Part shown: one piece after another, positions 6,414 to 10,655 of the stretch
Layout of the letters: each line of letters starts with the position of its first letter
Numbering within the stretch: the stretch's first letter is position 1
Source: a virus
DNA: 39,933 nucleotides
IMG/VR virus record: IMGVR_UViG_3300043570_005602
Location: 1-39,933 of that record
Reading direction: 5' to 3' (one strand)
Notes under the pieces: generated by a model
The model's input: the letters and a program-made list of their open reading frames with translations, nothing else
What the model was told of the DNA's origin: nothing
Databases searched by the model: none
Program-made: the position numbers and the translations under genes

Positions 6414-8441
6414 ATGGCACGATACAAATCACCAGGGCTTTCCATGGCCTTGCCACGTCGCACGCTGGAGTATCTTCAGCGTGGGGCGAGCGAGGGCATG
6501 CGCAATGCCGAACTCTTTGACGCCACCTGCCAGTTCCGCGACGCCGGCCACCCGCTGGAAGAAACGGAGGCGCAACTCCTCGCCCGCGCACTGGCCGACG
6601 GGCTCACCGAATCCGAAGCTCGAACGACCATCCGCTCGGTCTATGCACGCACGTCCCGCGAGCCGTTAGGCGCGGGCACGGTTCCGATCATCAAGACCTC
6701 ACCAACTCCACCGCCAAGGAAACCGTCGGTGACGCCGCCTCCGCGTGAGCGATCCACCATGGCATTGCCGGTGACCATCGACGATGGATTTGTCCATCTG
6801 CTCGACTCATGCTTTCAGCCAGAGGAATTCGTGGCGATTTCGCCCGCGGCTGAAAACGAAGACGGCGAAATCGTCCCGCGGCGTGGCGTGACACTCACGG
6901 CCACCGAGTGGAAAGCAAAAGTCGCGGCCAAGGGCGGCATTGATCGCGTCTTTGGCACCAAGCTCGGGCTGTTCCTGCGCATCAATCCGATGGCCAAGGG
7001 CGGCGCGAAAAACGAGGATGTGACGGCATTTCGTCATGTGCTCGTCGAGTTCGACCGTGACGAAGCGGGCAAGGCGATTCCCAAGGAGGAACAATACCAT
7101 GCGATTGTCGCCAGTGGCATGCCAGTCGCGGCACTGATCGACTCGGGCAACAAGAGCCTGCATGCGTGGATCCGAGTCGATGCGCCCGATGAAACAGAAT
7201 ACAAACGACGGGTTGAAATCATCTGGAGTTGGTTCTCCGGCATCAATCTCGACAAGCAGAATCGCAATGCCTCGCGTCTCTCGCGTTGCCCTGATGGTTG
7301 GCGCACAGTGGACGGCGAGCATCGTCGCCAGTCGCTCCTCGCGCTGCAGTTTGGTGCCGAGTCGTGGACGGCATGGGAGGCCGCGCACTCGAATTCCGAT
7401 CTGCCGCCCATCCTGCCCGGTCATTCGTTCATGGCTCAGCCGGAACCTGAACCACCGCAGTTGGTGCAGGGGATTCTGCACCAGGGAGCGAAGATGGTGC
7501 TCGGCGGGCCGTCGAAAGCGCGCAAGAGCTGGTCGCTGATCGACCTGATGCTCTCGGTGTCCACCGGTTCACCGTGGTGGGGATTTCCGACCCTGCGCGG
7601 ACGTGCCCTCTATCTGAACTTCGAGTTGCCTGCGTTCGCGCTCCAATACCGAATCCATCGCATTGCCGCAGCCAAAAGCATCGAGGATTTTTCCGGCTTC
7701 GACATCTGGAACCTGCGCGGCCATGCGACGGACTTCTCCGCGCTCATCCCGAAAATCCTCGGACGCATTCGCGATACGGGCTACTCGATCATTCTCATCG
7801 ACCCGATCTACAAAGGCCTTGGTGCTCGCAACGAGAACGACGCCGGCGACATCGCGAGCTTGCTCAATGAGGTCGAGCAACTGGCGGCAAAATCAGGAGC
7901 AGCAGCAGTATTCGGCGCGCACTTCTCGAAGGGCAATCAGGCGGGTAAGGAATCGATCGACCGCATCGGCGGCTCGGGTGTTTTCGCTCGTGACCCGGAT
8001 GTGATTCTCACCATGACGCCACACGAGGAAGATGATGCTCATGTCATCGACCTCACGCTGCGCTCTCTGCCGCCCGTGAAGGCTTTTGTCGTGCGCTGGT
8101 GCGAGTCGATCTTCATTCCCGATCAACAGGCCGATCCCGGGCAACTGAAGGCACCACAGGGGCAAGCCAAGAGCGAGAAGGCCAAGACGTCCTACAAGAT
8201 GGGCAGCACTGCCGACCGCTATGGCAAGGCCGTGGAGAACATGCCGCCACTGCCGAATGGTCGCATTGCCCAGGAATCCGGTGTGCTCGCCTATATCTCC
8301 GACCGCATCGCTGAGGTCGATGGCGACTGCACGCTCAAGGAGGCCCAGCGCGTCTTCTACTGCTTCGCCAACATGAAGGCGGGACCCATCATTTTCGACA
8401 AAGCAACTCGCCTGTGGAGGGGGCGCAATTATGCCATTTGA
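6414..8441 (+). CDS. Primase-helicase (prim-pol plus RepA-like ATPase)
   Basis: This 675-residue multidomain replication protein has an N-terminal helical domain (to ~85), a proline-rich linker (~95-115), then a RepB/AEP-type primase core with EFDRDE (212-217) and SGNKSLHAW (244-252), the acidic pair and histidine typical of prim-pols. A RecA-fold AAA_25/RepA hexameric helicase follows with Walker A GGPSKARKS (364-372), IILIDPIYKGLG as Walker B, and FGAHFSKGNQ. A winged-helix-like C-terminal domain ends the protein. It probably primes and unwinds at the phage origin. The TTTGAACC repeats and hairpin array begin at its stop codon, and the next gene appears to repeat its C-terminal domain. Confidence 0.88.
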   Translation: MARYKSPGLSMALPRRTLEYLQRGASEGMRNAELFDATCQFRDAGHPLEETEAQLLARALADGLTESEARTTIRSVYARTSREPLGAGTVPIIKTSPTPPPRKPSVTPPPRERSTMALPVTIDDGFVHLLDSCFQPEEFVAISPAAENEDGEIVPRRGVTLTATEWKAKVAAKGGIDRVFGTKLGLFLRINPMAKGGAKNEDVTAFRHVLVEFDRDEAGKAIPKEEQYHAIVASGMPVAALIDSGNKSLHAWIRVDAPDETEYKRRVEIIWSWFSGINLDKQNRNASRLSRCPDGWRTVDGEHRRQSLLALQFGAESWTAWEAAHSNSDLPPILPGHSFMAQPEPEPPQLVQGILHQGAKMVLGGPSKARKSWSLIDLMLSVSTGSPWWGFPTLRGRALYLNFELPAFALQYRIHRIAAAKSIEDFSGFDIWNLRGHATDFSALIPKILGRIRDTGYSIILIDPIYKGLGARNENDAGDIASLLNEVEQLAAKSGAAAVFGAHFSKGNQAGKESIDRIGGSGVFARDPDVILTMTPHEEDDAHVIDLTLRSLPPVKAFVVRWCESIFIPDQQADPGQLKAPQGQAKSEKAKTSYKMGSTADRYGKAVENMPPLPNGRIAQESGVLAYISDRIAEVDGDCTLKEAQRVFYCFANMKAGPIIFDKATRLWRGRNYAI

Positions 8442-8502
8442 ACCCGTCATTTCCGCCATGTTTGCACCTCAGGTTCAAATGGGTTCAAACCAATTTGAAC
8501 CC
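8436..8502. repeat. TTTGAACC-type iterons with a 9-bp-arm hairpin
   Basis: ATTTGAACC occurs directly at 8436-8444 and 8493-8501 and inverted as GGTTCAAAT at 8472-8480; GGGTTCAAA at 8481-8489 pairs with TTTGAACCC at 8494-8502 around a CCAA loop. Four copies of a nonamer core in 67 bp, starting at the stop codon of the primase-helicase gene, look like Rep-binding iterons. The protein contact is inferred. Confidence 0.55.
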
Positions 8503-8633
8503 GTTCAATCTAACGAAAAGTATTTTCCCTATGTAAGGTGCCTTACTGGGAACCTGACAGTTATACGTAGTATAACAACGCGAACTGGTGAACCAGTATT
8601 CGCGTTTGCTGTTACGCTAGTGATAGCGACAGC
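8481..8633. other. Row of five inverted repeats; candidate replication origin
   Basis: Five perfect inverted repeats follow one another: GGGTTCAAA/TTTGAACCC (8481-8502), GTAAGG/CCTTAC (8533-8546), GTTATAC/GTATAAC (8560-8576), ACTGGT/ACCAGT (8584-8597), and a compound one with GCTGT/ACAGC outside CGCTA/TAGCG (8608-8633). Their arms differ in sequence, so this is not a tandem repeat. Its place between a primase-helicase and its small paralogue favours an origin or primase-loading site; a structured RNA or operator array is possible. I treat 8442-8673 as non-coding although one frame stays open through it. Confidence 0.5.
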
Positions 8634-8673
8634 ACGATTTCTGTCACCGTTGACTCAGATGCTACGGGCAGAT

Positions 8674-8958
8674 ATGAACCCTAAAAATCGGTCAAAAAAA
8701 ATCCGCAGAATCCCCCGGACATCAAAGCACATGCACCTATGGCCGGAGCTGGAGTTCATGCCTCCCCTCGATCATTGGCCCAATCGACCAGACCTCTATC
8801 ACCCCCAAAATAGCCAGGTGCTCGGGTACATCTGCGAGTCATTCGGGATGTCCCTCGATGATGCAGAGAAGGTCTTCGGCAGTGCCCGGAAACGTGGAAC
8901 ACTTCGCTACGACAACAAGACCGGCCTGTGGGTCGGACGGAAAGGAGGTCAGCCATGA
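8674..8958 (+). CDS. Small protein repeating the primase C-terminal domain
   Basis: The 94-residue product has a basic N-terminus and a C-terminal half (VLGYICESFGMSLDDAEKVF ... TGLWVGRK) that follows the same pattern as the primase-helicase C-terminus (VLAYISDRIAEVDG ... TRLWRGRNYAI): a VLxYI helix, an A..VF helix, then a beta hairpin ending in LWxGR. I infer a duplicated winged-helix-like domain. The frame is open back to 8431, but TTGACT at 8650 lies 24 nt before ATG 8674 and the upstream part covers the hairpin array. The stop overlaps the next start as ATGA. Confidence 0.65.
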   Translation: MNPKNRSKKIRRIPRTSKHMHLWPELEFMPPLDHWPNRPDLYHPQNSQVLGYICESFGMSLDDAEKVFGSARKRGTLRYDNKTGLWVGRKGGQP

Positions 8959-9491
8959 ACTCGGATGACTACACCAAAAAGCAGTCACAACGTGATGCCC
9001 AGTATGAGCGCGAATACGAGGCATGGGTGAAGTCCATGAGTCCACAGGAACGGCGTGAGGCAGAAAAGCTCGGCCTGCTCAAGCCCTGCGTCCAACGCCA
9101 TGGCAATGGAGCTGCGGATCAAGACATGGCTGACTCTGCTGCGGCCAGCCACGAACCGGACATCGCCGCACTCGTTGATCACGAGGAAGAATCCCCCGGT
9201 AACGCGACAACGCGCGATGCCATCGAAGTGCTGCGCCATTTCGTCGCCGACTTACTCTCCGAGGGCAATACCCGGCTGACCGTCGAATGCCTCGCCATTG
9301 CTCTCGGACTGAGTGCCTACGATGGCGAGAGCATGACTACGGTGGCCAAGCGCCACGGAGTCAGTCGCGCCGCAGTCTCGAAACGCTGCGTTGACATCAC
9401 CGAAAGGCTGAATCTTTCGCCTTCAAGGGCCATGCGGAGCACCCGAGCACGCAGGATATACCAGAAGGCTCAACTCAAACGAAAACGCTGA
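8955..9491 (+). CDS. Helix-turn-helix protein (sigma-region-4-like)
   Basis: The 178-residue protein is charged in its first half. Its C-terminal half carries a helix-turn-helix (SMTTVAKRHGVSRAAVSKRC) resembling sigma-70 region 4/HTH_23 recognition helices, with a very basic tail. ATG 8955 follows one of the few strong Shine-Dalgarno sequences in the window (AAAGGAGG at 8941-8948) and overlaps the previous stop by 4 nt. It may be a transcription regulator of the early-to-late switch or a small-terminase-like DNA binder; position favours regulation. No specific family recognised. Confidence 0.75.
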   Translation: MNSDDYTKKQSQRDAQYEREYEAWVKSMSPQERREAEKLGLLKPCVQRHGNGAADQDMADSAAASHEPDIAALVDHEEESPGNATTRDAIEVLRHFVADLLSEGNTRLTVECLAIALGLSAYDGESMTTVAKRHGVSRAAVSKRCVDITERLNLSPSRAMRSTRARRIYQKAQLKRKR

Positions 9492-10355: not shown

Positions 10356-10423
10356 CGCGGGGAGGAATGTTCCAAGCGAGATTCATACCCTCGCCCTTGC
10401 GGGTTCAAGTCCCGCCCCCGTAA
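10356..10423 (+). tRNA. Shortened initiator-like tRNA-Met (anticodon CAT)
   Basis: The ends CGCGGGG (10356-10362) and CCCCGTA (10416-10422) pair with a C1-A72 mismatch, the hallmark of bacterial initiator tRNA, plus one G-U pair; A73 follows. The T arm is perfect, GCGGG-TTCAAGT-CCCGC (10399-10415). The anticodon arm has loop TTCATAC with CAT at 10384-10386, four paired positions and an A-C mismatch. The D region is cut to about 10 nt (GGAATGTTCC) and lacks the usual GG of the loop, giving 68 nt in total. No CCA is encoded. It is either a reduced functional tRNA or a decayed copy of a host fMet gene. Confidence 0.55.
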
Positions 10424-10439
10424 CGTATCTTATTCACTC

Positions 10440-10655
10440 ATGACCACACCAGTCCAACGAATCAAACGCCTTCTCGATGAGGGTGCAACATTCATGGTTC
10501 AAATCCCCGGGCAAATCTCCATCGACCTCACCCCCGACGTCATCGCGGCCATCGACGGGGTTCAATCTGCGTCGAGCGGTGTTCAAATCGGCAAGGAATC
10601 TATTGAACCTACCTATGCTGGCAGGGATATCCCCACCCGTGTCCAATTCCCGTGA
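10440..10655 (+). CDS. Small hypothetical protein
   Basis: A 71-residue product (MTTPVQRIKRLLDEGATFMV ... QISIDLTPDVIAAIDGVQSA) with an amphipathic N-terminal helix and a short strand-helix segment; no family recognised. It starts 17 nt after the tRNA-like gene with no Shine-Dalgarno site. Codon use looks like its neighbours, which supports a real gene, but it is short and unsupported by a domain. Confidence 0.5.
   Translation: MTTPVQRIKRLLDEGATFMVQIPGQISIDLTPDVIAAIDGVQSASSGVQIGKESIEPTYAGRDIPTRVQFP

Follow-up and report, generated by a model that had tools for sequence, protein, structure and literature searches.

A probable replication origin of iterons and hairpins behind the primase-helicase gene of a predicted temperate Verrucomicrobia phage

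What is the role of the short segment, crowded with repeats and hairpins, that lies directly behind the primase-helicase gene of this virus? The stretch of DNA analyzed here (the window, 39,933 nucleotides in full) was initially annotated as carrying four short repeats and five perfect inverted repeats within about 200 bp of the end of that gene, and a replication origin or an array of priming sites was proposed. Our analysis favors the same reading: we put at roughly 0.8 the probability that the segment is the replication origin of the phage, bound by its own primase-helicase and, we propose, using two of its hairpins (E and F; Table 1) as opposed priming sites. Support for this reading comes from compensatory changes in the stems, a spanning peptide that is not conserved, exchange of the repeats together with the helicase, and the annotation of a similarly placed element in phage Sfi21 as an origin, all of it drawn from sequence comparison.

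In the protein encoded by the upstream gene, a PriCT_1 domain (Pfam; residues 21-81) lies N-terminal of the primase domain (about residues 127-320), which matches the DNA primase family phrog_2597 from residue 127 (1e-98). It is followed by a RepA-like helicase of RecA fold (about residues 340-540; Pfam AAA_25, PF13481, 8e-24) that resembles RepA of RSF1010 both in sequence (match to 1g8y, E 0.0026) and in fold (matches to 1olo, 1nlf and 1g8y). Because the full-length structure model is of low confidence (pLDDT 60.6), the helicase matches alone were taken from it. In a model of the C-terminal domain (about residues 596-675), helices are followed by a beta-hairpin, and the nearest solved folds are mostly winged-helix domains, none of them significant. 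Two conserved strings, EFDRD and SGNKSLHAW, fit AEP motifs by eye; no solved AEP structure matched this low-confidence part of the model. The same domain order is found in the InversePrim family of AEP primases, within the PrimPol-PV1 supergroup (PMC5862659), and three traits of that family are present here: PriCT-1 before the primase domain, a RepA-family helicase fused C-terminally, and, for homologues, carriage by prophages.

Scanning of the window placed four copies of the octamer TTTGAACC within positions 8431-8645, in agreement with the four repeats first reported, together with a one-mismatch copy among them (Table 1). The repeats are strongly confined to this spot. Across the window and 38 viral relatives, TTTGAACC occurs at 39/kb in the first 80 bp past the start of an overlapping open reading frame, here termed the bridge ORF, and at 0.01/kb upstream (up to 7 kb). 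Where the window has CCTTAC and CCTGAC, CTTAC-like repeats with the same 12-nt spacing recur in relatives. One relative (L018) has its iteron block duplicated in tandem at offsets 6-110 of the bridge ORF, with six TTTGAACC copies in a frame that remains intact at 100 codons.

Table 1. Positions of the genes, repeats and hairpins discussed in the text (window coordinates).
Feature	Position	Strand	Remarks
Primase-helicase	6414..8441	+	PriCT_1, primase domain, RepA-like helicase and C-terminal domain in one polypeptide
Bridge ORF	8431..8958	+	start overlaps primase stop by 11 nt
Iteron TTTGAACC, copy 1	8437..8444	+	primase stop codon TGA falls inside
Degenerate iteron TTTGCACC	8461..8468	+	one mismatch; many relatives have intact TTTGAACC at same position
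Iteron TTTGAACC, copy 2	8472..8479	-	reads GGTTCAAA on +
Iteron hairpin	8481-8502		9 bp, built from two inverted iterons (copies 3 and 4)
Iteron TTTGAACC, copy 3	8482..8489	-	reads GGTTCAAA on +
Iteron TTTGAACC, copy 4	8494..8501	+	pairs with copy 3 to form hairpin 8481-8502
Hairpin C, GTAAG-GTGC-CTTAC	8533..8546	.	5 bp; includes CCTTAC, the main iteron of distant relative L086
Second-type repeat CCTGAC	8553..8558	+	12 nt after CCTTAC (8541-8546)
Hairpin D, GTTATAC-GTA-GTATAAC	8560..8576	.	7 bp, loop of 3
Hairpin E	8577..8606	.	8+4 bp, loop TGAA, 2-nt bulge on 3' arm
Hairpin F	8607..8634	.	6+5 bp, loop GTGA, 2-nt bulge on 5' arm
Looser iteron-like cluster	10401..10587	-	four one-mismatch matches to iteron

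The hairpins form a tandem row, in which D, E and F abut with zero intervening bases. Of the five inverted repeats first described as perfect, three are so, while E and F each contain a 2-nt bulge. This bulge lies on the 3' arm of E in 24 of 28 sequences and on the 5' arm of F in 27 of 28; being on opposite arms, the bulges give F, read on the minus strand, the shape of E on the plus strand. We infer that E and F are an opposed pair from this shape, and not from shared sequence. When folded as single-stranded DNA, positions 8425-8680 reach -49.6 kcal/mol on the plus strand (z -6.60) and -50.3 kcal/mol on the minus strand (z -6.85), and none of 200 shuffles was as stable. The GC skew, which the initial annotation had suggested inspecting, has no inflection at 8.4 kb. 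An Rfam search of the region returned nothing above the gathering score and a single chance-level match. We also considered an attC-like recombination site, since ATCTAAC fits RYYYAAC, but a matching GTTRRRY arm was not seen by eye.

To place these features in a wider context, viral contigs were scanned with the primase-helicase, yielding 42 loci, 38 of which include the end of the gene. Repeats and the hairpin row follow directly 3' of the gene in all 38, and the same row accompanies nine of ten helicase matches from Verrucomicrobia contigs. The relatives are not mutually independent, and perhaps ten distinct sequence types underlie the strongest points. Alignment of the stems, as had been proposed, revealed compensatory changes. 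In hairpin D every pair is Watson-Crick in 39 of 39 sequences (window included), with eight different arms represented; in D, E and F together, 492 of 500 cells are Watson-Crick. In an alignment of D and E comprising 14 different sequences, 99.2% of cells are paired and changes on both sides are seen at 11 of 18 pairs (6 of 7 in D, 5 of 11 in E). The covariation score of this alignment is 0.477, compared to 0.164 when shuffled and 0.01-0.12 (at most 0.123) for controls in which the partner was slid. Wobble pairs number four G-T versus one A-C in the 500 cells, too few to choose between plus strand, minus strand, RNA or DNA. Stems so close to purely Watson-Crick fit DNA hairpins; alternatively, they could have arisen by template-switch repair of palindromes and be functionless.

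The helicase matches come from Verrucomicrobiaceae and Akkermansiaceae contigs, several of them long enough to reveal integrated prophages: homologues lie within Verrucomicrobia contigs of 90-278 kb (L131, L133, L135, L137 and L139). These matches point to Verrucomicrobia as the hosts, and the window is accordingly predicted to be a temperate phage of Verrucomicrobia. A search for DNA-level similarity of the window to known phages found none.

A search with the primase part alone retrieved relatives with a different helicase and C-terminus. Two sets of these (L038, L057 and L059; L079-L081) retain the primase N-terminus and differ in the helicase and the C-terminal HTH-like part. The first set, with an HTH-like C-terminal end, has GCTGCA repeats and one long hairpin, and the second has CTGACA repeats and one long hairpin. 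Relatives with the same helicase type as the window and a diverged C-terminus carry CCTTAC (L086), CCTTGC (L093) or CGAGAC (L090) at the same spot, and retain D, E and F despite their other iterons (a strict search did not resolve F of L093). Repeat sequence thus appears to be exchanged along with the part of the gene that encodes the helicase and C-terminus, a correlation whose natural iteron/C-terminus swaps supply a ready-made test of specificity. As a separate observation, in L038, L057, L059, L072, L079-L083 and L087 the swap is modular and falls at a domain border, about residue 325, after which the retained primase N-terminus is followed by another helicase and an HTH-like C-terminus. 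In L091, the reading frame of the primase-helicase gene is disturbed close to the 3' end, and a TTCCC array and D/E-like hairpins persist downstream.

How does this arrangement compare with origins already described? In the record of Streptococcus thermophilus phage Sfi21, the annotation as origin of replication falls on a 302-bp element that immediately follows a putative primase. It contains AGTAAC nine times plus hairpins, and is reported to function as an independent origin that infection activates (PMC6356513). Like the window's segment, this origin, or PER element, lies directly after a primase gene and combines short repeats with hairpins; unlike it, the Sfi21 element belongs to another primase gene set, is annotated as non-coding, and has unrelated repeats and hairpins without the D-E-F row. 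In the IncQ plasmid RSF1010, RepC binds iterons, RepA unwinds, and the primase recognizes the stem-loops ssiA and ssiB (PMC4234260). The parallel between its oriV and the window is one of anatomy only: iterons and a RepA-like helicase, with the iterons beside stem-loops that are able to serve as single-strand initiation sites and are proposed as priming sites. The RSF1010 primase also belongs to the same supergroup as that of the window (PMC5862659). The two differ in that RSF1010 has separate RepA and RepB', whereas the window has one fused polypeptide, with PriCT-1 at its N-terminus, and more hairpins; in motif II, as assigned by eye, the window has His and RSF1010 has Gln.

Replication of pRN1 requires a stem-loop located 3' of the primase-helicase gene, and the same has been proposed for phage BIP-1 (PMC4234260). 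As in the window, the shape of this stem-loop is conserved and its sequence is not, and it lies 3' of a primase-helicase with a C-terminal DNA-binding domain (PMC4234260), which in the window is putative. In contrast to the RepA-type helicase and iterons of the window, pRN1 and BIP-1 combine an SF3 helicase with one large stem-loop and no iterons. A related primase-helicase (35-40% identity) is present in the Firmicutes phages EFC-1, Javan535, Javan355, Lugh, Aster and Castelnaud. In these InversePrim-like phages, as in the window, the gene mostly follows a DEAD-type helicase gene and is itself followed by repeats and hairpins; unlike in the window, the repeats and hairpins are different ones, and a bridge ORF is found in Castelnaud only. 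Javan535, for example, has AGGGAC 16 times after the gene, with a fold z of -8.7 versus simple shuffles. The literature searched described no origin for this primase-helicase family, which is common in phages, and a probable origin with predicted binding sites is now located for it. The element in the window is a variant of the known primase-gene-linked origins and not a separate kind.

The initial statement that no gene explains the region needs correction: the bridge ORF runs through it, and its open state is conserved. In most relatives this ORF is 77-100 codons long and ends in a TGA that overlaps the ATG of the next gene. In the group to which the window belongs, it forms an in-frame fusion with a small gene (ATG 8674) similar to the C-terminal domain of the primase-helicase (paralogy by BLASTP, 3e-07); this paralogue beside the iterons may be a stand-alone DNA-binding copy in competition for them. 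Across the bridge, 30 distinct sequences contain 0 in-frame stops, whereas the other two forward frames contain 201 and 175; the ATG-to-ATG distances are all 2 mod 3, indicating that all bridge indels preserved the frame. Unrelated open frames fill the interval between helicase stop codon and following start codon in L079-L081, L086, L090, L093 and phage Castelnaud, and no such frame is present in L085, EFC-1, Javan535, Javan355, Lugh and Aster. The L038 type has few stops in any frame, so that an open bridge there is weak evidence alone.

These properties raise the question of whether the bridge ORF encodes a real, fast-evolving small protein, with the hairpins arising as a by-product. No relative interrupts the frame, indels are exclusively in frame, and dN/dS in the iteron part is 0.55, as such a protein would lead one to expect, but the explanation is very improbable given the remaining evidence. 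In the hairpin part dN/dS is about 1.07 as opposed to 0.13 in the neighboring primase used as control, so that purifying selection on the peptide was not found in this part, and differences at codon positions 1, 2 and 3 are about equal (0.34, 0.40 and 0.39). Within close groups, synonymous sites of the bridge ORF are nearly frozen (pS in G2 of 0.000 versus 0.281 in the primase). Together, these values indicate constraint on nucleotide sequence and structure, and on keeping the frame open, rather than on the peptide, the reverse of a frame from 8431 conserved as protein instead of structure, which the initial annotation had weighed against its own reading. Moreover, compensatory pairs alter both residues, non-homologous ORFs occupy the same place in L079, L090, L093 and Castelnaud, and the third iteron of relatives is out of frame with the other iterons.

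Constraint on structure could also be exerted at the level of RNA, by a translated mRNA leader whose structure serves to couple or control translation of the gene that follows. Such a leader would account for the overlap of the bridge-ORF start with the primase stop and of its stop with the next ATG, for a frame that is open in all relatives, and for the iteron complement that lies within GGAGGTTCAAAATG, where the downstream gene starts. We nevertheless consider it unlikely, because the repeats change with the helicase while the downstream gene (MSADDYAKKQ...) is the same in L038 and L003, and because relatives from Streptococcus, Enterococcus and Faecalibacterium have repeats and hairpins in a gap without a bridge ORF; in addition, G-U pairs are rare (4 of 500) and no Rfam family matched. 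The palindromes might instead be double-stranded operators, used for instance in autoregulation of the replication operon, whose arms covary since the half-sites bind one protein. Hairpin D is near-perfectly symmetric in all 39 sequences, iteron-like sites recur 1.4-2.2 kb downstream, and the small C-terminal-domain paralogue is encoded next to the segment, all of which would suit operators. This possibility is distinctly unlikely in view of the 2-nt one-arm bulges of E and F and the 3- or 4-nt loops in D, which disrupt dyad spacing, and of the position of the segment within an operon; in addition, a search of 8200-9000 for sigma-70 promoters, the only promoter type covered, and for intrinsic terminators found none.

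If the segment is an origin, the RepA-like hexameric helicase of the primase-helicase would open the DNA, and hairpin E on one strand and hairpin F on the other would act as opposed priming sites for the primase domain. Synthesis would then start on both strands, as with RepC/RepA/RepB' and ssiA/ssiB in RSF1010. Given an origin inside an operon, we infer that the frame stays uninterrupted to let ribosomes trail RNA polymerase across it; the open frame across the origin would on our own interpretation perhaps be an anti-polarity bridge. Streptococcus is known to be without Rho, and the missing bridge ORF in Streptococcus phages would therefore fit; Faecalibacterium phages do not obviously do so. 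We hold tentatively, at somewhat below even odds, the fuller proposal of a translated origin without a selected protein, which combines an anti-polarity frame, exchangeable iterons that correspond to the C-terminus of the helicase, and opposed bulged priming hairpins. If true, it is a caution for gene callers that a conserved open frame need not mean a protein.

A looser iteron-like cluster is found further downstream (Table 1). In relatives, the density of iteron-like sites is 1.19/kb between +1.38 and +2.2 kb and falls to 0.13/kb beyond, a difference of about nine-fold. In the window, GGTTCAAA/TTGAACC sites are present at 10401-10600, around and within a small ORF (10440-10655). This cluster might represent another binding region comparable to crr of phage P4, or it might be a by-product of the T-arm of a tRNA-like element. 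The latter, at 10356-10424 of the window, is a short initiator-tRNA-like cloverleaf of 69-73 nt, with CAT in a 9-nt loop, a C1xA72 mismatch and a stunted D arm, and is not called by ARAGORN or Rfam. The cloverleaf also occurs in L004, L008, L009, L017, L018, L021, L022, L030, L031 and L043, with a CCA end in relatives, and its T-arm, GGGTTCAA, matches the iteron complement.
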